This document shows positions 8,040-38,841 of a stretch of 45,131 nt of DNA, piece after piece (within the stretch, counting starts at the first letter, position 1; every line of letters begins with the position of its first letter). The position numbers and the translations under genes were made by a program. The notes beneath the pieces were generated by a model that saw only the letters and a list, made by a program, of their open reading frames with translations, did not search any database and was not told the origin of the DNA. Where the stretch lies: IMG/VR virus record IMGVR_UViG_3300045973_001494, positions 1 to 45,131 of that record; one strand, 5' to 3'. Source of the stretch: a virus.

Positions 8040-11000
8040 TTAACGGGAGGAGACGCTGCGGGCGTCGGCAAGCTGGCGCAGCAGGTCGTTGACGATGGCC
8101 TGGCTGTCGGCATCCTGCGTGCGCACGGTCTTCGTGCCGCCGCCGATGGGCCAGGCGAAGTTGGTGACGTAGGTCGGTGCGGGGGCTGCTGTCGGGGCCG
8201 GGGCCGGTGCGGCGGCTGGCGCTGGTGTGGCCGCTGGCGCTGGCGTGGTTTGCGTGCCAGCGCCGTCGCCGAAAGTGATGGTTTCAGCGGCTTTGAGCAG
8301 CGCGTAGCTCATCGTGCTGGCTTCGCCGCCGTATTTTTTCTGAGCGCTGTTGCCAAAATACTGAACGTTGCCCTTGCCGTCGCTGAACTCCAGGGCGAGC
8401 TTTTTGGCAGCAGCTTCATCATTGACGCCCGCCGATTTCAAAAACGCCATCACGCCCGTGAGCGTTCCAAGGTCGGTGCCCATGACAAGACGGTTACCGT
8501 CTTTCCCGGTCGCAAAGCCGTCTTTATCAACGCCCCGGCGCTTATTCTCAGCATCGATGACTTTTTGCTGAGCTGCAGCCTCCCGGCCAAGCAAATCAAT
8601 CTGGCGCTCTGTGTAAGCGCTGGACTGGGTGTACTTCATCATCATTCGATCAAAGGCGTCTTGCTGTGCCTTGACGGCTTCAGTGTTTGCGCGGGTAGCA
8701 CCAGTTTCACCACCTAGCGCAGACTTGTGTGCATCTGAAGCTGATGTGGCACTGCGCTTGGCCGCAGTCCACTCTGCATGCACACCTATCCCGTTTTTCA
8801 TGTCCTGAAGCTGTTTTTTCAGCTCGGTAATCACCGTCCCGGTAGCTTCAGCTTCTTTCAGTTTTATTTCAGCTGACCGGATGCTGTTTTCGATGTTCAG
8901 ACGCTGCACCTCTGTGAGCTGTCCTTTTGCTTCAAGTTCGGCGCGAGTTGCATTGGCCACCGAAATAATTCCACTGGCTTCAGTGTTCAGACTGGTGACA
9001 TGCAGCTCCACCAGCTGGATTTCGATTTCTTTTTGCTTGATGAGTCCCTGCCGAAATCCATACTCATTTCCAAGGCGAACGGCTTTTTGTTTTTCAGCTT
9101 CGGCCTGAGCTGTCAGCAAGTTGTAGCCCGCCTGTTCGAGCTGGAATTGAGACTGGAAAGCTGAGGATCGGGCAGCCTCTGTTTTTATCGAATCGGCCAG
9201 CGCGTCTTTGTAGAGTGCTTCGGCCAGCGTGCGGCGTCGGGTCGCATCCGTCACCGATTCCTTGCTCATCATTCCCTGCTTTTCCAGGGCAATATAGTCC
9301 GCCTCAACCTGCATGGCTTTTTCCATGGCCACGCGCAGCGAGGCCACGGCCATCGCGTTGTCCTGGTAGGTAGCCATTGCGATTTGGCGCGCTGTGGCTT
9401 CGTTTTTGGCCGCTTCCAGAGCGTTCTGACTGCCGACGGCTTCCGCTTCCATCGCCACCGCCTTGGTGCGGATGTCGGTGATTTCTTTGGCGCGGGCTTT
9501 GGATTCAGCTTCGTTGCCAGCCACGAGCGCGAGCTTTTGCGTGAGTTCAGCCTGCAGCGTTGCCAGAGCCTGATTGCGGGCGCTGGCCAGCGCTCCCAGC
9601 ACTGCCACATTTTTTTCAGCAGCGGCAATTTCAGCCTGCATTGTGTCTGCGTCGTTACCGCGCAATCGGGTAAGCGCAACGATGCTGTCACCCTCAATTT
9701 TTGCGGCTGCAGCCAGCTTTTCAGCGACCGCCACTTGCTTTTCTTGCGCCACCGTGATCTCGCCCAGCTTGACGCTGAGCTGCACCCACTTTGTGCCCAG
9801 TCCCGTGGTGCTGTCGCCCATGATTTTCTGGGCCAGCGCCACGCCATCGGTGGCGGCGGCATTGGCCTGGGCGGCGGCGGTGGCGCTGGCGATCTGCGCT
9901 GCAGATGCGGCGGCGGCCTGACCATTTACCCGAGTGGCTTCGGTCGAGACGACCAGCGCATCAGCATGTTTACCGGCCACGCCCGCCGCCGATGCAAACG
10001 ACTCAGTGAGCGCCCCGACGCGGCCCGACGCATCGCCGAAAATTTCCTTCAGCGCATTGAGCGGATTGGACAGCGTGACCAACCCCCCAAACAGCACAGC
10101 AGCGGCTTTGAATGCGCCAAAAATTATCTCGATGAAGGTTGCAATCGGAACCACAATCACGCCCAGCACAGCGGCCAGCGTGCGCAGAGACAGCGTCAAT
10201 AGCGCCATGCCGCCCGAGTCGCCCACATTCGTCAGGCTCAGCTCCAGTGCGTTTTTAAAGCGCTCCCAGCTGCCTGCAGCGGTGTTTGTGTCGCCCTCCA
10301 TCGACTTGAGCGATTCAGCCAGCGCCGGGAATAGGTCGCGGGCGGCCAGCTTGCCAGAGCTGACCAGATTGATCAACTGCAGCTCAGTTAACCCCAAACC
10401 TTTGGCAACCAGAGACAGACTTCCCGGCAAATTTTCCGAAAGTTGGCCACGAAGCTCTTCCATTTGCACGGTTCCCTTGCTGGCCATCTGGCTCAAAGCC
10501 TGCAGAGCAAGGGATACGCGGTCGGTGGACAGGCCGAGCGTGGCACCAGCTTTTGTGACGCTGCTAAACAGCGCATTGGTGGTTTCAAGCGGGATTCCAG
10601 CAGATTTTGTGGCCGCTGAAAATCCAATAAATGATCTCGACAAACTGCCAGCCGACACGCCCGCGCTGTCCGCAGTCTTGCGCAAAAACTCAAGTTGCGA
10701 TGCGGCAGTGGTGCTGTTTTTGTAAATGGCATCCAGTGCCCGGCGCGTTGACTCAAGTTCGGTGTTCGACTTCCAGAAAGCGGCACCCAGTTCAGAGACT
10801 TTCCCGACCAAATAGCTGATGCCGTTGGCAACCAGATTGCCTCCGGTGATTTGGCCCATGCCCGTGCTGAACGCAGCGCGCGCTTTGTCGGCAAATGTCA
10901 GGGTGCCCTCGACTTGCCGCAGGCTCAGCTCCAGCTCTTTGATTTTTGCGTTGCCTGCAGAAAAAGCGCTCTGCAGCCCGGCCCCGGTGGCACCGCTGCT

Positions 11001-18882: not shown

Positions 18883-20157
18883 ATGAGCAAAAAAGGACCG
18901 TTTGGGCTGTGGATGGGGATGATCAAGAGCGACTTTGATCAACCGCTTACCGAACTTGCTCCGTGTAAATTTCAGGCCAAAACTGTTTCACATCCTCATC
19001 CTGCATTTGCAAATTACATTGTTCATATTTCTCCTCGCGCCGGTCTTTTCTTGGTTAAGGCGACGGGTAAACCTATCGTTGCTAGTCCTGATGGAGCAGA
19101 GTTGAAATCAGCATTTGAAGTAATGGAGAAAAAACTTTCAACCATTTACGGAAAACAGAAAAAGATTGACACTCTTTTTGATGAAAGCCACTGGGCCGCG
19201 CCCGAAGACTGGATGCAATCAGTTTTTAGCAAAGAACGCTTTCTCGCTTCCGAGTGGAGCAGGGAAACGGGGGCTTCAATTGATGAGTCTTATTCGTCCA
19301 TTACTCTTTCCATTTGCGTTGATAATGTCTACGCAGGCTACATAGCACTTGAATATTCATTTAAAAATTTTGCAATCGCCCAAGCTGAAATATTGGCCTT
19401 GGAAGATGTTGTGCTTCGAGTAAATATGAGCACACCCAATCTTCCACCAGCTAATAAAGACGCATGGGAAGACTGGGACACAGAGCAGTACGCCCCCGGC
19501 ATGAGGGAGCGCAAGCTGGAAGGCGTGCGCCTCAATATCAAATTTATGGATCGCGCAGGACAAATCACCCGGCGCGACGTGGATGTACAGAAATATGCCC
19601 ATAATCCCGGCAATCATGCTGGTGTGATATATGCCTTTTGCCACCTACGCCAAGCGCGCAGACCCTTTGCATTCAGCCGAATCCAGCAGGCCACAGACCT
19701 GTCCACTGGCAAAACAATCCCGGACATTGGGACTTTTCTGGATAACGCCTATCAGGCCACGCCACTCTATACGGTAGAGCAGTTCCTCCAGGAACAGGAT
19801 GCAGCAATGTATGTCCTTTTCTCATTTGCCAAAGCTGATGGGGCAATGAGGGCCAAAGAGCGGAGCATCATCCTGCAATGGGCCAAGACGCAAGGCATGT
19901 CGGAACCTGCGGCAATTGCTGAGCTGGAAACTCAGATACGCGGCTGGTACATGACAAGGGGCGGCTTTTGGAATGCTGTGAAGATGGTTAAAACCCAGAA
20001 CCAGTCCGCAGAGTACATGCAAGCACTTTGGGCCTCCATCAACACCATGATGTCGAAAAAAACGCTGCATACACAAGAGGAGCAATTCCTGAGCTATGTA
20101 GCGCGGCAGTGGGGGTTCAAGGAAGCTAAACAAAAGACACTTTCCGTAAAGTCCTAG
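18883..20157 (+). CDS. Cargo protein with WYL-like and TerB-like domains
   Basis: 424 aa. The N-terminal half, ending near LEDVVLRVN, is of unknown family. Residues ~210-275 look like a WYL-type ligand-sensing domain: basic and aromatic, with HAGVIYAFCHLRQARRPFAF followed by SRIQQATD. Residues ~300-420 look TerB-like: AAMYVLFSFAKADGAMRAKE, then helical repeats and HTQEEQFLSYVARQWGF. Both domains recur in stress and defence proteins. The gene is visibly lower in GC than the flanking virion genes and reads against them, so it is probably a moron or defence gene acquired later. Its stop is directly followed by the C4-type RNA region. Function is not known. Confidence 0.85.
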   Translation: MSKKGPFGLWMGMIKSDFDQPLTELAPCKFQAKTVSHPHPAFANYIVHISPRAGLFLVKATGKPIVASPDGAELKSAFEVMEKKLSTIYGKQKKIDTLFDESHWAAPEDWMQSVFSKERFLASEWSRETGASIDESYSSITLSICVDNVYAGYIALEYSFKNFAIAQAEILALEDVVLRVNMSTPNLPPANKDAWEDWDTEQYAPGMRERKLEGVRLNIKFMDRAGQITRRDVDVQKYAHNPGNHAGVIYAFCHLRQARRPFAFSRIQQATDLSTGKTIPDIGTFLDNAYQATPLYTVEQFLQEQDAAMYVLFSFAKADGAMRAKERSIILQWAKTQGMSEPAAIAELETQIRGWYMTRGGFWNAVKMVKTQNQSAEYMQALWASINTMMSKKTLHTQEEQFLSYVARQWGFKEAKQKTLSVKS

Positions 20158-20159
20158 GC

Positions 20160-20165
20160 TACAAT
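20160..20165 (+). promoter_or_regulatory. Possible -10 box (TACAAT) for the C4/ant transcript
   Basis: TACAAT lies 22 bp before the closing stem of the C4-type RNA, which would place the start about 13-15 nt upstream of it. No good -35 is seen at 16-18 bp upstream, so the promoter is tentative. Confidence 0.35.
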
Positions 20166-20186
20166 TCGCACAAATCCACATCGAAA

Positions 20187-20279
20187 GGTGTGGTCGGGTT
20201 TGACAGCCCGGTAGATACAGCGGCCCAAAGCCGCAGCCTCCGCAGGTCATGCGGCTTTCTTGATTTCGTCCTGGATACC
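20187..20279 (+). ncRNA. C4-type antisense RNA controlling the antirepressor
   Basis: The 93-nt element is closed by GGTGT (20187) with ATACC (20275). Hairpin I is CGGG-TTTGACAG-CCCG (20195-20210). Hairpin II is a 7-bp stem AGCCGCA/TGCGGCT (20229-20256). The loop of I contains TTGACAG, complementary to CTGTCAA at 20350-20356. The loop of II contains GCCTCC (20236-20241), exactly complementary to GGAGGC (20417-20422) in the Shine-Dalgarno region of the antirepressor gene. Two loops that pair with two sites in the ant leader are the hallmark of C4 RNA in phages P1 and P7. The family call is from recognition of this layout; it was not run against a covariance model. Confidence 0.82.
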
Positions 20280-20289
20280 TCCGTTTATG

Positions 20290-20427
20290 GTGGCCCAGGC
20301 GGGAGAGCCGCAAGGCTCGCCGGTTTAAAGCCTCCGCTGTGTCGCCGGTCTGTCAATCCCGCCTTGGGCTACCACCCTTTTGACAGAGGGTGCAGTCTGC
20401 GTTCAGACACACATCAGGAGGCCATTC
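20290..20427 (+). promoter_or_regulatory. Structured leader and ribosome site of the antirepressor gene
   Basis: GTGGCCCAGGCGGGA near 20290 is largely complementary to TCCCGCCTTGGGCTACCAC near 20357. Within it sits GAGCC-GCAA-GGCTC, a perfect stem with a GNRA loop. TCTGTCAA (20349-20356) pairs with TTGACAGA (20380-20387), and GTCTG-CGTT-CAGAC (20395-20408) is another hairpin. The ribosome site AGGAGG (20416-20421) is 6 nt before the ATG. A second GCCTCC at 20330-20335 could mask it in cis. Competing pairings suggest translational or transcriptional control by C4 RNA. Confidence 0.75.
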
Positions 20428-21195
20428 ATGGCTGATTTCATCACGGGCACGTCCGCCCTCATTCCCGTCTTCACGGGCACCCTTTCCGACTCCACCGCCC
20501 GCCTGTGCGATGCGCGCACGCTGCATGCCTTCCTGCAGGTCAAGCGCGATTTCACGAACTGGATCAAGGGCCGCATCCGAAAATTTGGCTTTATCCCCGG
20601 AGTGGACTTCATTGAAATTGAAAATTTGAGCTCGCCCGATTTGGCGAGCTCAAAATCCCGCGCTCAAAAACTGACCGACTACCACCTGACCCTCGACATG
20701 GCCAAAGAGCTGTCGATGGTCGAGAACAACGACATGGGCAGGCAGGCGCGGCGCTACTTCATCGCGTGCGAAGCCGCCGCCCTCAACCCGGCGCGCATCA
20801 GCCCGGCCCAGCCAGCATCACTAAGCCCAGCGCTTGACAGCATTGACGTGCGCGCCCTGCTGCTGTCAGGCCAGGGCGAGACGGTACAGTTGACCCGCGT
20901 GCAGCAGGCCGCGCTGGAGCGTCATGCCTGGATGCTGGCACACGAGGCTTACGAGCTGGTGCGCGAACACATCGAGCGCCGCGTGGCTTGCAACAGCACA
21001 CCTGAGCAGCGCAGCAATCCCGCCAATCACCAGGTCTATGAAGTCATCAAGTCCATCACGCTGGGCAATGCACTGGTGCATAAACACCATACCCAGATTA
21101 ACCACATCCTACGCACCTCCAAATTTTTGAAGAGCTTGACCGATGACTTCTTTGGCGACATGAGCAGTGCCAGCCAGAAAGGCGGTGCCGCATGA
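20428..21195 (+). CDS. ant: AntA/AntB-type antirepressor
   Basis: 255 aa from the ATG at 20428 behind a consensus AGGAGG. The AntA/AntB domain covers about residues 15-115: RLCDARTLHAFLQVKRDFTN, WIKGRIRKFGFIPGVDF, YHLTLDMAKELSMVEN and ARRYFIACE. The C-terminal half is helical, with LERHAWMLAHEAYELVREHI. Antirepressors of this class bind and disable phage repressors and trigger lytic growth; in P1 they are held down by C4 RNA encoded in the same transcript, as seen just upstream here. The stop overlaps the next start by 4 bp. Confidence 0.92.
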   Translation: MADFITGTSALIPVFTGTLSDSTARLCDARTLHAFLQVKRDFTNWIKGRIRKFGFIPGVDFIEIENLSSPDLASSKSRAQKLTDYHLTLDMAKELSMVENNDMGRQARRYFIACEAAALNPARISPAQPASLSPALDSIDVRALLLSGQGETVQLTRVQQAALERHAWMLAHEAYELVREHIERRVACNSTPEQRSNPANHQVYEVIKSITLGNALVHKHHTQINHILRTSKFLKSLTDDFFGDMSSASQKGGAA

Positions 21196-22265
21196 GCCGC
21201 CCGCTGTACCGCCAAATGTCTGATCTGGTATGGGACAGCGCCCTGCCCGATGGCTTGGGCAAGTCAAAAAACGTCCTGCTGTGCTACTGCCACCACTTCA
21301 ACGACCTGGCTGGTGCCAGCTTTCCCGGCATGGCGCGTGTGGCCAAAATGTGCGGAATCAGTGTGCGTGCCGTCCAAAATCATGTTCGCGCTCTGGAACG
21401 CGCCCGTATCCTGCTGCCCCGCACGCGCCGGGGTCTTCCGACACGCTACGGCATTGACCTCAGCAGCCTGACACCGATTTTCCCCGAGAAAGTGCAGCCT
21501 GTGGATAACTTGCTGGACGCTGTGGATAACTCTGATTTTGAAGGGGCAACCCCGGCAGATTTTGCAGCAACCCCAGCAGAATCAAGCACCCTACCCCAGC
21601 AGATTGAGACGGCAACCCTAGCAGAATCTGTACCCAAACAGTCTTTAACTGCTAAAACAACTATCAGAACAGCCGACCCGGCTCTGCCGGATGCGGTGAT
21701 GATGGTCGATGGTGTCAATCCTCAAGTCCTGGCCGACTTCGCGGCCATCCGGGCCAAAAAGAAATTGGGCGCGCTCAACGCCACGGCGCTCGAAGTCTTG
21801 TGCAGCGAAGCGGCCAAGGCTGGCCTGACGCTGGCGCAGGTCTTGACGACGTGCTGCGCCCGCAACTGGGGCCGCTTTGAAGCCGCATGGCTGACGGAGG
21901 CCAGCCGCAGCCCGGCCAGCAGCGCCAGCATGGCCAACACCACGGTGCCCGCGCCGCCCGCAGGCCCGCCGCCCGAGCCGCTCAAACCCGCAGCGCCCGA
22001 AGTCGCCGCCGCTGGCCGCCAGCGGCTGCAGGAAATCCGCAAAACCATGCTTGGCGCACCGGCCATGCCAGCCGGGGACAGCGACATTCGCATCGCCCCC
22101 GACGCGCCCGGCTGGGCCGTCGCCCTGGTCAACAAGGCCAAGTCGGGCCAGTTTGTGACCAACGGCGTGCTGCGCGGTGCCTGCCTTGCGCTCAAGATCG
22201 ACCCGGCCAAGGTGCGCCGCGCCCAGGCTGGCCCGGCGGGCTTGGCGGCGGGCCGGGTGCATTGA
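21192..22265 (+). CDS. Helix-turn-helix protein, possible replication initiator-like (O-like)
   Basis: 357 aa, ATG overlapping the ant stop (ATGA). Residues ~1-90 hold a winged helix-turn-helix of the type found at the N-terminus of phage replication and primosome-related proteins: SFPGMARVAKMCGISVRAVQ followed by NHVRALERARILLPRTRRG. The middle (LNATALEVLCSEAAKAGLTL, then RNWGRFEAAWL) recalls the DnaD-like helical region of such proteins. The C-terminal part is Ala/Pro-rich and ends with GVLRGACLALKIDP. It may be a DNA-binding accessory regulator or a second initiator. The 3' end converges with the Mor-like gene 9 bp away. Confidence 0.82.
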   Translation: MSRPLYRQMSDLVWDSALPDGLGKSKNVLLCYCHHFNDLAGASFPGMARVAKMCGISVRAVQNHVRALERARILLPRTRRGLPTRYGIDLSSLTPIFPEKVQPVDNLLDAVDNSDFEGATPADFAATPAESSTLPQQIETATLAESVPKQSLTAKTTIRTADPALPDAVMMVDGVNPQVLADFAAIRAKKKLGALNATALEVLCSEAAKAGLTLAQVLTTCCARNWGRFEAAWLTEASRSPASSASMANTTVPAPPAGPPPEPLKPAAPEVAAAGRQRLQEIRKTMLGAPAMPAGDSDIRIAPDAPGWAVALVNKAKSGQFVTNGVLRGACLALKIDPAKVRRAQAGPAGLAAGRVH

Positions 22266-22274
22266 GCGGCGGCA

Positions 22275-22562
22275 TCAAGCCTCTGCAACAATGCGCCGCA
22301 CATGGCGCGGGCTCTTGCCGTATTCCTTGGCCAGTTCATGCAAGTTGGCACCGGTGAACTTCCGGCGAATCGCCGCATGCTCCTGCTGCCGCTGGAGGGT
22401 GCTGATGCTGGGCACGTAAAAGCGGGCACCCGCCATGCGCGTGATGATGCGGCTCACCAGGGCGCTGGCCATCGCCTCGCTGTCAGCAGTTCCAAAGCAG
22501 AGCGCCACGGCGCGGGCTTCGTCTTCAATGATGTTGAGCGGGTCTTCAAAGGCTGTGGTCAT
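22275..22562 (-). CDS. Mor-family transcriptional activator
   Basis: 95 aa from the ATG at 22562 (MTTAFEDPLNIIEDEARAVA). Longer in-frame extensions overlap the terminase gene and are improbable. The fold pattern, an N-terminal helical dimerisation segment then RRKFTGANLHELAKEYGKSP with a closing RHVRRIVAEA, is the Mor/C helix-turn-helix found in Mu-like phages. Such proteins activate middle or late promoters. It follows terminase large by 20 bp in the same direction, and is the last gene before the inserted opposite-strand cassette, so it is made late rather than ahead of the late genes; its target is unknown. Confidence 0.85.
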   Translation of the reverse strand: MTTAFEDPLNIIEDEARAVALCFGTADSEAMASALVSRIITRMAGARFYVPSISTLQRQQEHAAIRRKFTGANLHELAKEYGKSPRHVRRIVAEA

Positions 22563-22581
22563 GTCGGGGGGCAATGCTGGC

Positions 22582-24675
22582 TCAGTAAAAGCGGATGGGG
22601 GCAAACAGTTCGTCGTCGTTGCTGGGCATCGACGGTGCTGGCGCTGGCTCTTGCGCCGTTGGCGCGGGAGCCTGCAGCGCAGGCGGCTGCACTCGGGCGG
22701 CTGGCGCTGGCGGGGCGAACCCCTCCTCGCCTTCCAGCAGCAGCGGCGCTTGGCGCACGGCATGCTCGGCCAAGTCCCACTGGGTGGGGCGGCGCAGGTG
22801 CAGGCGCATGGCGCGGTACAGGTAAACGGCATAGACGGTGCAGTCCAGCGCCTCGTTGCGGCGGTCGGTGCGCGGCTTCCACTCGCGCTTGGCTGGGTTG
22901 TTGCGGCTCGGAATCTTGATCTCGCTCAGCAGCTGCTCGTAGAAGTCGTCGCGCACGCCGTCGTACCAGTGCATGCGACCGGGGCCATTGCCTTCAAGCC
23001 GCACGCGCCCGGCGTTTTCTGACCAGCCCAGAATCAGGTCTTTGGCTTTGGCCGCACCGACGACGCTGACGGCCACGCCGTGGCGCGCGGCTTTGGTGGA
23101 GCGGTTGTTGGGGTCCACTTTCTTGGGTGGCGTCCAGATTTCCACTCTGCCCACAGCGTCGGACGCACCTTTGAGGGCGAACACTGGGCGGTCTGCCTTG
23201 TGGTGCTTGCGCACAAAGGCATAAGTGGCGTCGCTGGTCTGGCCGTCCGAGCAGTCGATGCCTACGGCCTTGATGCGCAGGGCAGCGCCGGTGGCGTGGC
23301 GGATGCGCTTATCGAGCAGTTGCTCCAGGTCGATCCATGCACCAGCGTGGGCCACCACGGTGGGGGCGTACAGCTCGCCCCAATAGACCAGCCACATTTC
23401 CTCGCCGCGCCCAAAGGCCCAGACGGTGACGGCCAGCCGGTCGTGCTGCACGTCCACGGTGGCGTACACCTCAAGGCCGCCCATGGGGCAGCTCCACTCC
23501 AGATAGGGTTCGGCCCTGGCGCGCAGCACGTCCTCTTCTGGCAGCTCGCCCCGGTATTCCCAGGTGATGCCGAGGGTGGAGTTCCAGAAGGCGATCATGT
23601 CGTTGGGGTCGCCCCGGTCGAGCTTGTCTTTGGCTTCGAGGTACTTGCGCGCCAGCACGGGCACGCGGGACTCGTCGAAGGTGCTCAGCAGCTCGTTGAG
23701 GTAGAAGCCCGGTATGGCGCTGTCGGCGGTGGCCACCCAGCCGCCGCCGCAGGCCTCGGCGCGCCGCAGGTTGGCAATGCGCTCTTCATCGGTCCAGATC
23801 TGGCCGCAGTGCGGGCAGGTGTAGAAGGCTTCTTCGTGCCGGTGACGACCGTAAATCTCGCGCTGCGGGCCGTCTTCCGGCTCGGGAATGGTGACGTTTT
23901 CCCAGGCGAGGATGTGGGTTTCGTGGCAGGAGTGGCAGGGAACGTGGAAGTAGCGCTTGTCGGTCTTGCGCATTTCGGCTTCGACGGCGCTGGCGTCCTT
24001 GGCGGTGGGCGTGCCGCCGATCAGGATGAGGTGGTCGGGGTAGGTTTTGACGCGCTCTTCGAGCAGTTTGATGGAGTTGCCCTGCCCTCGCACGTCGGTG
24101 GCGGCGTCGTCTGGCTCTTCAACGATCACCACGCGGGCGCTTGTGGATTTCACGTCGCTTGGGCTGTTGGTGCCCACCAGCTTGAGCAGGCCACCGGGGA
24201 AGCGCTTGCGCAGCATGCTGTTGCCGTCGGCCCGGCTCTTGAGGTTGATGCGGCTCTTGAGAACGGCGCAGGCGCGGATCATGGGGTCGAGCTTTTCGCT
24301 GGCGAAGTCTTTGGCGGCCTGGGCGCGTGGGAAGGCGGCGACGATGACGCTGGGTTTGTAGTGGATGTGGTAGCCGATGACGTTGCAGACGATGCCTGCG
24401 GTGTAGCCGACCTGGGCGCTTTTCTGGATCACCATCTTGCGGGTGGCGTGGTGGTTGGCCACCTCTGCAATTCCGCGCAGGGCGGGCGACACATCCCAGC
24501 TGAAGCGCCCGCGCATGGCTGATTCTTCGTTGCTCAGCACGCGGTATTTGACTGTCCAGGCTGAGATGGGGAGCTTTGGCGGCGGCTTGAGTTTGCGCCA
24601 TGCGCGCCCGAGCATGGCGCGCAGCGCGATTCTGGCCCTGGCCTGGTGGTTGAGGTCCGAGTCGGCGTAGTTCAC
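22582..24675 (-). CDS. Terminase large subunit, lambda gpA family
   Basis: 697 aa. The Walker A-like motif is QKSAQVGYT (residues 84-92) and Walker B is ARVVIVEEPDDA (~180-191). Two CxxC pairs, VPCHSCHE and FYTCPHCGQIW, form a zinc-like knuckle as in gpA. The nuclease half contains YATVDVQHDRLAVTVWAFGR and VGIDCSDGQTSDATYAFVRK, with acidic residues suited to metal binding. The C-terminal ~60 residues are Pro/Ala-rich and end NDDELFAPIRFY, a likely portal-contact tail. The start overlaps the small subunit stop by 4 bp. It cuts and pumps concatemeric DNA into proheads at cos-type sites. Confidence 0.95.
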   Translation of the reverse strand: MNYADSDLNHQARARIALRAMLGRAWRKLKPPPKLPISAWTVKYRVLSNEESAMRGRFSWDVSPALRGIAEVANHHATRKMVIQKSAQVGYTAGIVCNVIGYHIHYKPSVIVAAFPRAQAAKDFASEKLDPMIRACAVLKSRINLKSRADGNSMLRKRFPGGLLKLVGTNSPSDVKSTSARVVIVEEPDDAATDVRGQGNSIKLLEERVKTYPDHLILIGGTPTAKDASAVEAEMRKTDKRYFHVPCHSCHETHILAWENVTIPEPEDGPQREIYGRHRHEEAFYTCPHCGQIWTDEERIANLRRAEACGGGWVATADSAIPGFYLNELLSTFDESRVPVLARKYLEAKDKLDRGDPNDMIAFWNSTLGITWEYRGELPEEDVLRARAEPYLEWSCPMGGLEVYATVDVQHDRLAVTVWAFGRGEEMWLVYWGELYAPTVVAHAGAWIDLEQLLDKRIRHATGAALRIKAVGIDCSDGQTSDATYAFVRKHHKADRPVFALKGASDAVGRVEIWTPPKKVDPNNRSTKAARHGVAVSVVGAAKAKDLILGWSENAGRVRLEGNGPGRMHWYDGVRDDFYEQLLSEIKIPSRNNPAKREWKPRTDRRNEALDCTVYAVYLYRAMRLHLRRPTQWDLAEHAVRQAPLLLEGEEGFAPPAPAARVQPPALQAPAPTAQEPAPAPSMPSNDDELFAPIRFY

Positions 24676-26205: not shown

Positions 26206-26206
<1 letters not shown>
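26123..26206 (-). CDS. Small translationally coupled peptide (27 aa)
   Basis: The ATG at 26206 shares a base with the TGA of the replication gene (TGATG), and the stop lies 13 bp before the next start. The peptide MEIELKIENLGAAREVLAQL continues SGWRVWL. Its first residues recall the opening of the gpZ-like protein next to it (LDIKVDGLEGLQRE), so it may be a decayed duplicate. Coupling and compact spacing support translation; the function is unknown. Confidence 0.5.
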
Positions 26207-27237
<1,031 letters not shown>

Positions 27238-27294
27238 GACGACACCTCAAATTTGTAATCAACCATCTTGTTTCCCACCAGAAACGCACCGCAT

Positions 27295-27368
27295 AAAAAA
27301 AGACGCACGGCAGGCGGGCGGTGAAACCGCTTTTCAGTCGGGAGAGCAAATCCCTTCCTAGCCGTGCG
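27295..27368 (-). terminator. Multibranched terminator A (leftward early operon)
   Basis: CGCACGGC (27304-27311) pairs perfectly with GCCGTGCG (27361-27368). Inside are GCGGT-GAA-ACCGC (27318-27330) and GGGA-GAGCAAA-TCCC (27340-27354). Read on the minus strand, the closing stem is followed by TC and seven T residues (27295-27301), so it can act as an intrinsic terminator. It lies after the 121-residue gene and before the replication gene. The branched loop is unusual for a simple terminator. Confidence 0.65.
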
Positions 27369-35529: not shown

Positions 35530-35687
35530 ACTCAATAATCATAACAATTGAAATTGAACCCGACTTCTTGACAAAAATAATCAACGGAGGGTTTTATCTT
35601 GCTGTTGCTTTTTTTGCCGGATTTGTCGTGGTGGTCGCCACTGGGGTTTTGTTTTCGCTGTGCAAAAAGAAGGATGGTACAAAATGA
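35526..35687 (+). CDS. Small single-pass membrane protein (53 aa)
   Basis: The ATG overlaps the upstream TGA (ATGA) and its own TGA overlaps the methyltransferase ATG, strong evidence of coupled translation. One transmembrane stretch, FYLAVAFFAGFVVVVATGVL, follows an N-terminal acidic part and precedes a CKKKDGTK tail. Confidence 0.75.
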   Translation: MNSIIITIEIEPDFLTKIINGGFYLAVAFFAGFVVVVATGVLFSLCKKKDGTK

Positions 35688-37609
35688 GACGCGACAGCTT
35701 CAACCCAGCGTTCGGCTCTGTCGAAATCCTCCACGGTCACCTGTTCTGCGGCATTGGGGCAGGGGCCAAGGGCTTCAACAAGGCCCGCCCCAGCGTGGGC
35801 ACGCTGACCGGCCGTTTCCGGTGCATCGGCGGCATTGACAGCGACCGCCAGGCCATCGAGGACTTTGGCCGCCGGACGGGCACGCCCGGCACGGTGCTGG
35901 ACCTGTTCGACCGCTCGCAGTACATCGCCTTCCACGGCCGCGAGCCGGGCGCTGAGTGGCGCGAAGCGGGCACCACCGATATTCACCGCGCCTTTGGCTA
36001 CGAGCGCCCGCACATCGTCTTTCTGTCGGCACCGTGCAAGGGCTTTTCCGGCCTGCTGTCCGAAAGCAAGTCGCACACCGAAAAATACCAGGCGCTCAAC
36101 CGCCTGACGTTGCGCGGGATCTGGCTGACGCTGGAAGCCTACAAGGACGACCCGGTAGAAATGCTGCTGTTCGAGAACGTGCCGCGCATCGCAACACGGG
36201 GCCGCCAGCTGCTGAACCAGATTACCGCGCTGCTGCGCCACTACGGCTATGCCGTGAGCGAAACCACGCACGACTGCGGCGAACTGGGCGGTCTGGCGCA
36301 AAGCCGAAAGCGCTTTTTGCTGGTCGCCCGGCACATGGAGAAGGTGCCGCCGTTCCTGTACCAGCCCGACAAGAAGCCGCTGCGCGCCGTCGGCGACATC
36401 CTGGGGCGCATGCCGCTGCCCGGCGACCCGGCTGGCGGCCCGATGCACCGCGTTCCCACGTTGCAGTGGAAGACCTGGGTGCGGCTGGCCTTTATCGAGG
36501 CGGGCGGAGACTGGCGCAGTCTGAACAAGCTCGCTGTCGAGGGCGGCGAGCTGCGGGATTACCTGATCGTGCCCGAGATGCACGGCGGCATGTTGGGCGT
36601 GCAGGACTGGGGCGCGCCCAGCGGCACGATCACAAGCAAGGGCCGCCCGAGCAACGGCAACTTTGCCATCGCCGACCCGCGCTTTGAACAATCCGCCAAA
36701 TGGAGCGACGGCCAGGCCTACGGCGTGCGCAGCTGGGACAAGCCCACCGGCACCATCGCTGGCCAGCAGAGTCCGGGCCAAGGTGCCTACACCGTCGCCG
36801 ATCCGCGCCACGGCGGCCCGGCCAAGCACTCGAACGAATTCCGCATCGTCAACTGGGCAGGGCCAGCGCAGGCGGTCACCAGCGCCCACGGCACAGGGCA
36901 GGCGGTTGCTGACCCACGCCGGCCCGGCGAAGGCTTCGGCAAGTACGGCGTAACAGCCTTTGGCGCGCCAGCGGGCACGGTGATCAGCGGCAGCACCACG
37001 GGGCAGGGCGCTTTTGCCGTCGCCGATCCACGGCCGGGCCTGGCGCGCGAGAAGGGCGACCACTACCTGACCGGCGGGCATTACGGCGTTGTGGGCTGGG
37101 ACAAGCCGAGCTACGCCGTGACGGGCACTGCGAACCTGGACAACGGGCATTGGACGGTGGCTGATCCGCGCAACTTGCCAACTTGCGCAAAATCGCAAAC
37201 TGACCCCGAATGCTTGACTGCAATGCCAGCACCGGCCGACAAGCTGGTATGCCGCATCGCCGCGCTCGACGGCACCTGGCACCGGCCGTTCACCACGCTG
37301 GAGCTGGCGGGCCTGCAGTCGCTGTTTGACCCGGATGAACTCTGGCCAGCCGATGCGCAGATGGCCAGCGAGGTGGCCGCCCACCACCGCGCCCACTTCA
37401 CGATGGCCGGAAACAGCGACCAACGCTGGCGCGAGGGCATCGGCAACGCTGTGCCCAGCGCGGCGGCCACCGCCATCGCCGAAGTGATGGGCGAGACGCT
37501 GCTGCTGGCCTGGGCTGGCGAGACATTCCAGTTGTCGGCCAAGCCGATCTGGGTAAGGCCGCTGGCCATTGCGATCAGCGTGCGCCAAGCACTTGGAGAA
37601 ATTACATGA
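35684..37609 (+). CDS. C5-cytosine DNA methyltransferase with repeat-containing central region
   Basis: 641 aa from ATG 35684 (MRRDSFNPAF). SAM-binding motif I is HLFCGIGAGAKGF (residues 19-31); catalytic Cys118 lies in SAPCKGFS; ENV of motif VI is at 164-166; QSRKRF of motif VIII at 206-211; motif X is GIGNAVPSAAATA (~585-597). Between VIII and X, residues ~299-496, five copies of a YGV-x2-W-x-x-P-x-G-T-(I/V) ... VADPR unit form an expanded target-recognition region (36578-37171). It could protect phage DNA from host restriction. The stop overlaps the next start by 4 bp. Confidence 0.93.
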   Translation: MRRDSFNPAFGSVEILHGHLFCGIGAGAKGFNKARPSVGTLTGRFRCIGGIDSDRQAIEDFGRRTGTPGTVLDLFDRSQYIAFHGREPGAEWREAGTTDIHRAFGYERPHIVFLSAPCKGFSGLLSESKSHTEKYQALNRLTLRGIWLTLEAYKDDPVEMLLFENVPRIATRGRQLLNQITALLRHYGYAVSETTHDCGELGGLAQSRKRFLLVARHMEKVPPFLYQPDKKPLRAVGDILGRMPLPGDPAGGPMHRVPTLQWKTWVRLAFIEAGGDWRSLNKLAVEGGELRDYLIVPEMHGGMLGVQDWGAPSGTITSKGRPSNGNFAIADPRFEQSAKWSDGQAYGVRSWDKPTGTIAGQQSPGQGAYTVADPRHGGPAKHSNEFRIVNWAGPAQAVTSAHGTGQAVADPRRPGEGFGKYGVTAFGAPAGTVISGSTTGQGAFAVADPRPGLAREKGDHYLTGGHYGVVGWDKPSYAVTGTANLDNGHWTVADPRNLPTCAKSQTDPECLTAMPAPADKLVCRIAALDGTWHRPFTTLELAGLQSLFDPDELWPADAQMASEVAAHHRAHFTMAGNSDQRWREGIGNAVPSAAATAIAEVMGETLLLAWAGETFQLSAKPIWVRPLAIAISVRQALGEIT

Positions 37610-38841
37610 AACACCAATCCACATTCTTCGACGGCGGGCGACGCCTGCAGATGAACGAATCCATTGAGCTGACCATCAAGTCGCTGCAGGCCTACGGCCA
37701 AGACCATCAGGACTGGGGCATTGCCTGGTCGGGCGGCAAGGATTCCAGCGCCACACTGACGCTGATCTGCTGGTTGATCGACACCGGCAAAGTTTCCCGG
37801 CCGCGCTCGCTGACGGTGTTCTACGCCGACACACGGCAGGAGCTGCCGCCATTGGCTATAGCCGCCGAGAAGATCATGGATGAGCTGCGCGAGCGCGGCA
37901 TCCGCGTCGAGGTGGTCACCGCCCCTATGGATAAGCGCTTCATGGTGTACATCTTGGGCCGGGGCGTGCCGCCGCCCAACAACAACACGCTGCGCTGGTG
38001 TACGCGCCAGATAAAGATCGACCCGATGCAGGACGCCATTGGCCAGCGCCTGGCCGAGTTTGAAGGAAATGTGCTGATGATCACCGGCGTGCGCCAGGGT
38101 GAGAGCGCCATCCGCGACGCGCGCATCGAGATGTCCTGCAGTAAGGACGGCACCGAGTGCGGCCAGGGCTGGTACCAGCAGGTGCTGCCCAACGCAAAGG
38201 GCTTGCGCGGCCGCATCGCTACGCTGGCACCGCTGCTGCACTGGCGCGTCTGCCACGTCTGGGAGTGGCTCAAGCACTGGGCACCGGCGGCGCAGTTCGG
38301 CGACTGGAGCACGGCCGCCATTGCCGACGCCTACGGCGGCGACGAGGCCGAGGAGATCAACGCCCGCACCGGCTGCATCGGCTGCCCGCTGGCGCAAGAG
38401 GACAGCGCCCTCAACACGATCCTGAAAAACGACCGCTGGGCCTACCTGGCGCCGCTCAAGGGCATCCGGCCGCTGTGGCGTGAACTGCGTGAGCCCAAGC
38501 ACCGGCTCAAGAAGGCAGGCATCGAGCGGCTCAAAGATGGCGGCATCGCCAAGAACCCCCAGCGCATGGGACCGCTGACCTTCGAGGCGCGGCTGATGGG
38601 CCTGACACGCATTCTCGGCATTCAAGGCGAGATCAACGCAGCCGCCCAGGCGCAAGGCCGGCCAGAAATCAGCCTGATCAACGCAGAAGAGGAAGCCCGC
38701 ATCCGGCAGCTGATCTCGCTTGAGACCTGGCCCGACGGCTGGGACGGTGACGAGCCCACAGCCGACACGGTGATGGAGACCATCTATCAAAACGGGGCCG
38801 TGCAGCCATTACTTTTTAGCGCTGAAGAGGCATTCACATAA
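37606..38841 (+). CDS. PAPS reductase / DndC-like PP-loop protein
   Basis: 411 aa. The PP-loop is WSGGKDSSAT (residues 41-50). TVFYADTRQELP follows, then LRWCTRQIKI (Cys132), ITGVRQGESAIRDAR (~160-173), and GCIGCPLAQ (Cys257, Cys260), with Cys178 and Cys185 between. PP-loop, GVRxxES and spaced cysteines fit the DndC / phage PAPS-reductase family, which holds an iron-sulfur cluster and activates a substrate with ATP. The ATG overlaps the methyltransferase stop, so the two are probably made together. DndA, DndB, DndD and DndE homologues are absent from the window. Confidence 0.88.
   Translation: MKHQSTFFDGGRRLQMNESIELTIKSLQAYGQDHQDWGIAWSGGKDSSATLTLICWLIDTGKVSRPRSLTVFYADTRQELPPLAIAAEKIMDELRERGIRVEVVTAPMDKRFMVYILGRGVPPPNNNTLRWCTRQIKIDPMQDAIGQRLAEFEGNVLMITGVRQGESAIRDARIEMSCSKDGTECGQGWYQQVLPNAKGLRGRIATLAPLLHWRVCHVWEWLKHWAPAAQFGDWSTAAIADAYGGDEAEEINARTGCIGCPLAQEDSALNTILKNDRWAYLAPLKGIRPLWRELREPKHRLKKAGIERLKDGGIAKNPQRMGPLTFEARLMGLTRILGIQGEINAAAQAQGRPEISLINAEEEARIRQLISLETWPDGWDGDEPTADTVMETIYQNGAVQPLLFSAEEAFT

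Follow-up and report, generated by a model that had tools for sequence, protein, structure and literature searches.

The window, a 45,131-nucleotide stretch of viral DNA, contains an AntA/AntB antirepressor gene (ant) that is preceded by a C4 antisense RNA and, further upstream, by an RNA carrying targets for it; this identity of the locus is virtually certain. The best explanation of its organisation, and one we consider quite probable, is that of an IsrK-C4-ant immunity locus in which C4 exerts control both at an intrinsic terminator and at the ant leader. The silencing of an antirepressor gene by C4 RNA is known; what is new here is the prediction, made by comparing ~60 related loci, that C4 stops its own transcript at an upstream terminator.

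Results

A C4 RNA between an IsrK-like element and ant

A covariance search of the whole window with the Rfam C4 model (RF01695) gave a single match, at 20283-20379 on the + strand, covering 87/87 model positions with 70.3 bits (E 8.5e-12; gathering score 45 bits). The predicted fold of this RNA has an energy of -54.0 kcal/mol. It is the only C4 antisense RNA that Rfam finds in the window, and it lies between a structured element at 20187-20279 and the antirepressor gene, whose product scores 84.6 bits against AntA/AntB (PF08346; gathering score 27). The preliminary description had reported a structured RNA upstream of an AntA/AntB antirepressor, which is borne out, and had proposed that a C4-type antisense RNA controls ant. 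The system was thus rightly recognised, but antisense and target were exchanged: the 93-nt element at 20187-20279, taken there for C4, adjoins C4 and is the upstream target, an IsrK-like RNA.

The Rfam isrK model (RF01394) matches 20175-20261 over its full length with 43.0 bits (E 6.8e-8 in a 701-base search), short of the gathering score of 50, and c4-a1b1 (RF03163), the family of upstream C4 targets, matches 20162-20214 with 19.2 bits, short of 46.7. The RNA at 20175-20261 is not claimed as a member of the isrK family; it looks like IsrK and probably works like it. Its context is that of isrK in Gifsy-1, namely two hairpins and an intrinsic terminator, then a C4-type RNA, then an antirepressor. 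The full order of the locus is a promoter-like site, the IsrK-like RNA (b1, a1, terminator), C4, b2, a2 with the ribosome site, the antirepressor and an O-like replication initiator (Table 1). The order a1b1-C4-a2b2 is that of P1. An icd-like gene between C4 and ant, a trait of P1 immI, is absent from the window, where only a 48-nt leader separates the end of C4 (20379) from the start of ant (20428). Of 58 elements, 26 had a TANNNT motif with at least a 4/6 match in the -10 region, where shuffled sequences would give 8.9; within the window itself the promoter call is weak.

Table 1. Coordinates of the ant locus and its neighbours in the window
Feature	Position	Strand	Evidence
TerB-like protein upstream of the switch	18883..20157	+	Pfam TerB 6.8e-5, just under cut-off
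Candidate -10 box TACAAT of the IsrK-like/C4/ant transcript	20160..20165	+	5/6 match; good -10, weak -35
IsrK-like RNA, two hairpins and terminator	20175..20261	+	Rfam isrK, sub-threshold
b1 hairpin CGGG-TTTGACAG-CCCG, its loop the upstream target b1 of C4 b'	20195..20210	+	Complement of CTGTCAA in C4
a1 target GATACAGCGG, partner C4 loop CCGCTGTGTC (20334-20343)	20214..20223	+	10-bp complementarity, duplex -18.1 kcal/mol
Antiterminator hairpin GCGGC (20220-20224) / GCCGC (20230-20234)	20220..20234	+	Shuffle p 0.01 in window
Intrinsic terminator AAAGCCGCA...TGCGGCTTT + CTT	20227..20262	+	Stem -12.3 kcal/mol
C4 antisense RNA	20283..20379	+	Rfam RF01695; a' loop ~20330-20343, b' CTGTCAA 20350-20356
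b2 target TTGACAG in ant leader	20380..20386	+	Perfect complement of b'
a2 target, GACAC and Shine-Dalgarno GGAGGC	20406..20422	+	Two-part duplex with C4 a' loop, -20.2 kcal/mol
AntA/AntB antirepressor, 255 aa	20428..21195	+	Pfam AntA 7.3e-24; PHROG 5817 anti-repressor Ant 3.4e-47
O-like replication initiator	21192..22265	+	PHROG 678 (phrog_678) 8.8e-16
Mor-family late activator at end of TerL, convergent to ant operon	22275..22832	-	Pfam Mor 6.1e-13

Contacts of C4 with its targets

The two loops of C4 are complementary to the ant ribosome site (a') and to a second site in the leader (b'). The b' sequence CTGTCAA complements b1 (20200-20206) upstream and b2 downstream. The preliminary description had placed CTGTCAA in the ant leader; the motif lies inside C4 (20350-20356), and it is its complement TTGACAG that the leader holds at 20380-20386. 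The loop that was said to be complementary to CTGTCAA does exist, as TTTGACAG at 20199-20206. For the loop said to complement GGAGGC, the sequence GCCTCC is present at 20236, but the partner of the ribosome site is the GCCTCC in the C4 loop at 20330-20335. The copy at 20236 was rejected as a ribosome-site contact; it lies in the terminator loop, the sequence of which is not conserved in relatives.

Scanning viral contigs for the pattern yielded 41 non-redundant C4 loci, two further hits (L013 and L014), which resemble coding sequence, having been discarded. Two classes can be told apart: P1-like loci lack a terminator, whereas in IsrK-like loci an intrinsic terminator separates a1b1 from C4. 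The order isrK then C4 also occurs in Hafnia and Actinobacillus phages. The unlikeness to immI of P1 that had been suggested for the window holds insofar as the locus is of the IsrK class, whose terminator between a1b1 and C4 is known from Gifsy-1. No C4 lies beside the antirepressor gene of Bordetella phage IFTN1 (~43% identical), so that the protein also occurs without the RNA. A match to the sRNA-Xcc1 family (68.1 bits; L188 1973-2059) was seen upstream of an antirepressor gene in Bordetella phage vB_BaM-IFTN1.

The C4 loop varies widely in sequence, with 50 distinct versions in 55 loci, and among IsrK-like loci the match between a' and a1 covaries. Across 30 such loci the mean energy of a' with its own a1 was -12.8 kcal/mol compared to -6.4 kcal/mol with swapped partners, a difference equalled in 0/5000 permutations, and the natural a1 was the best partner for a' in 24/30. 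With the ant leader the corresponding values in IsrK-like loci were -14.1 kcal/mol for the natural and -9.3 kcal/mol for swapped partners (again 0/5000 permutations).

Competing hairpins between a1b1 and C4

Loci of the IsrK-like class have a G-rich arm, overlapping a1 at its 3' end, that is able to base-pair with the terminator's 5' arm; the result is a three-arm attenuator. In the window the terminator and the antiterminator share the arm 20227-20235, the 3' terminator arm is 20250-20258, and a1 and the antiterminator arm overlap by 4 nt. This arrangement is present both in the loci found through C4 (30) and in a separate set of 34 terminator-bearing loci that were found by the b1 hairpin only and were unused in the first analysis. 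Compared to dinucleotide shuffles, the antiterminator was significant (p<0.05) in 16/30 loci of the first set (Fisher chi2 168, 60 df); in the independent set the competing hairpin was found in 32/34 loci, 16 of them at p<0.05 (chi2 193, 68 df), although both combined p values are too small, the loci sharing ancestry.

Swapping terminator arms between loci weakened the antiterminator from a mean of -7.6 to -4.9 kcal/mol (62 loci, Wilcoxon p 6e-9), and matched changes are seen in the two arms: GGCGG/CCGCC, GGCGC/GCGCC, GGTGC/GCACC, GGCTC/GAGCC and AAGCGG/CCGCTT. In L002, L027, L063 and L071 an arm was overlooked or wrongly placed by the automatic parser, and L002 and L071 were excluded from this test. 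A MAFFT alignment of the attenuator misplaced the second arm; for the antiterminator its pair counts were left unused and the swap and shuffle tests were relied upon instead. The a1 target overlaps the antiterminator arm in 50/52 loci (25/26 in each set), an overlap partly forced by the shortness of the region.

Folding of the nascent window RNA, with the third arm not yet emerged, gave the antiterminator a probability of 1.0. This fell to 0.0005 when a1 was blocked, compared to 0.97 and 1.0 in controls where the flank 5' of a1 or the b1 loop was blocked. Over all loci, blocking a1 and b1 together lowered the mean predicted probability of the antiterminator (0.88 to 0.26) and raised that of the terminator (0.62 to 0.89). 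Blocking a1 must disturb an arm that it overlaps; the telling point is the placement of a1 there. The full-length window leader prefers the terminator even without C4 (0.76), and antitermination would therefore have to be kinetic. The competing hairpin is weak in the Enterobacterales and Pasteurellales examples examined (Gifsy-1, Hafnia, Actinobacillus), so attenuation may not hold in the one branch that has been studied by experiment.

Transcription attenuation by C4, as these folding models predict it, appears fairly probable. Alternatively, C4 could, as in P1, do no more than block translation of ant; the upstream element would then be a decoy and the terminator would set a fixed level of read-through. 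P1-type loci (e.g. L003, L005, L038, L041) do have a1b1 and C4 with no intrinsic terminator, and attenuation is therefore not needed for C4 to function. However, a fixed terminator would need neither a competing hairpin tuned to each terminator arm, as found in 32 of the 34 independent loci, nor a1 on the 5' arm of that hairpin, as found in all but two of the 52; control of translation alone is therefore unlikely.

Genomic setting of the locus

On the minus strand the genes run Nu1, TerL, Mor, then gpW-like, portal and other virion genes; between Mor and gpW the plus strand carries the TerB-like gene, IsrK/C4, ant and the O-like gene. The ant locus had earlier been placed inside a late operon, on the strand opposite to the virion genes. 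The opposite strand is confirmed, with the locus between TerL/Mor and gpW/portal, and the position is true of the window and of a relative, the 14.5-kb contig L042 (Nu1 90% and TerL 87% identical); it looks, however, like a separate operon convergent to TerL-Mor and not like a stray insert. In L042 an operon carrying C4, ant and repO follows TerL-Mor and converges on it; beyond the replication initiator it goes on for another ~5 kb of genes, which is why it looks like an operon of its own. That contig ends soon after C4, and the comparison covers the TerL-Mor side, not the join to the portal side. A chimeric assembly is a less likely source of the unusual position, since L042 has the same convergent order. 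Fourteen other loci gave a TerL match (four of them near-identical relatives); in all 14 C4 shares the strand of TerL, lying upstream of it in 11 and downstream in 3 (L004, L077, L104). Placement opposite to the late genes is uncommon but real.

The stop codon of ant overlaps the start of the O-like initiator as ATGA, an overlap that the reading frames of ant and repO in L042 also show. The true start of Mor is probably near 22580. The TerB-like gene, which immediately precedes the RNA switch, shares its strand and diverges from the gpW-like gene; it probably does not belong to the switch.

Several further features were observed. In L042 a small Arc-like DNA-binding protein is encoded at 8274-8699 (- strand), further along the operon than ant and the replication initiator. 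The window has a match to the int-alpA sRNA family at 27289-27368 on the - strand (39.7 bits, cut-off 35.8), adjoining a second replication protein (26206-27237); the phage therefore carries two replication-initiator-like genes. At 35660-38841 a DNA methyltransferase-like gene is followed by a phosphoadenosine phosphosulfate reductase-like gene, possibly a DNA-modification or defence cassette.

Discussion

The working of the locus may be pictured as follows. One transcript, from a promoter near 20160, would either end at the IsrK-like terminator (~20262) or continue into C4, ant and the O-like initiator. The longer RNA is presumably the source from which C4 is cut, and C4 would use the same pair of loops in trans at each of two sites. 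By pairing with a1 (and b1) on the nascent RNA it would break the antiterminator and let the terminator form, lowering transcription of C4 and ant; by pairing with b2 and the ribosome site it would, by homology to P1, block translation of ant. We infer the step from competing hairpins to C4-driven termination with the help of folding models. The same targets are present in the terminated IsrK-like RNA, which could soak up C4 and release the operon; that this short RNA is a sponge for C4 seems rather more probable than the contrary. In a cell without C4 the antiterminator would form first, and ant and the replication initiator would be made, leading to lytic growth; in a lysogen C4 would keep both itself and ant low.

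Among the closest known systems is that of the Salmonella prophage Gifsy-1 (NC_010392), where isrK (79.3 bits) is followed by C4 (69 bits), together with c4-a1b1 (48.1 bits), upstream of an antirepressor. The Gifsy-1 IsrK-orf45-anrP locus (RF01394 then RF01695) shares with the window the promoter, IsrK with its terminator, a C4-type RNA, in Gifsy-1 over "orf45", the antirepressor and the same two loop contacts; the C4 match (L126 34131-34214, - strand) covers the published orf45/STnc1160 region. Unlike Gifsy-1, the window has a sub-threshold isrK match, a strong antiterminator hairpin where that of Gifsy-1 is weak, no 45-codon leader reading frame, an antirepressor coupled to a replication initiator, and a strand opposite to the late genes. 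IsrK supplied in trans raised a transcription fusion ~8-fold and a translation fusion ~139-fold (PMC4825925), which is what titration of C4 would give.

The authors of that study explain the activation differently, by translation of orf45. On this model a leader reading frame over C4 must be translated for ant to be translated, and IsrK in trans opens its ribosome site; applied to the present locus, it would mean that C4 is not an antisense RNA. Mutations in isrK and orf45 support the model in Gifsy-1, and extra STnc1160 did not reduce the effect; with the P4 CI RNA as a parallel the authors considered a possible action of STnc1160 at the IsrK terminator, which a co-expression experiment did not support (PMC4825925). 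However, the leader reading frame has 13 codons in the window and from 13 to at least 97 elsewhere, whereas the C4 fold and its loop complementarity are conserved; the study, moreover, makes no mention of C4 RNA or phage P1 (PMC4825925). Leader coupling as in Gifsy-1 was rejected on the grounds that the frame is not conserved among loci, and as an account of the present locus it is very improbable. That the element at 20187-20279 is itself C4, its two loops pairing with the ant leader and ribosome site, is almost certainly wrong: its hairpins are present and their loops contain TTTGACAG and GCCTCC, but the Rfam C4 match adjoins that element and does not cover it, CTGTCAA is within C4, and the GCCTCC terminator loop is variable.

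An IsrK-C4-ant locus with control at both terminator and leader also resembles other systems in part. In pT181-type plasmid attenuators an antisense RNA acting in trans switches the nascent leader between antiterminator and terminator, the same choice as is predicted here; unlike in these, the antisense RNA of the window is encoded downstream, on the same strand, in the very transcript that C4 would limit. P1/P7 immI (RF01695, RF03163) shares the C4 fold and the a' and b' contacts upstream and at the antirepressor ribosome site, whereas the window adds an intrinsic terminator and a competing hairpin between a1b1 and C4. The P4 CI RNA, with seqA and seqC, is likewise a processed antisense RNA flanked by two target copies and causes premature transcription termination (PMC4825925); the likeness drawn here is one of described organisation, and P4 controls its replication genes where the window has the antirepressor first. 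Neither self-attenuation by C4 at an upstream terminator nor an antiterminator in IsrK or C4 leaders is described in the literature searched, which is weak evidence as most subscription papers lay outside it.

These results join subjects kept apart in the literature found, as the orf45 region of an IsrK study that does not speak of C4 (PMC4825925) is C4 by Rfam. C4-dependent termination would be a concrete and testable mechanism by which prophages hold an antirepressor down, and in the present phage the switch would also govern the replication initiator. The balance tips slightly towards IsrK-C4 being a widespread form of temperate-phage immunity, in which one antisense RNA controls its own transcript twice, by attenuation and by covering the ribosome site, the ended transcript serves as a sponge, and the ~50 loop types represent separate immunity types. 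This suggests that heteroimmunity between phages may be readable from short RNA loops.
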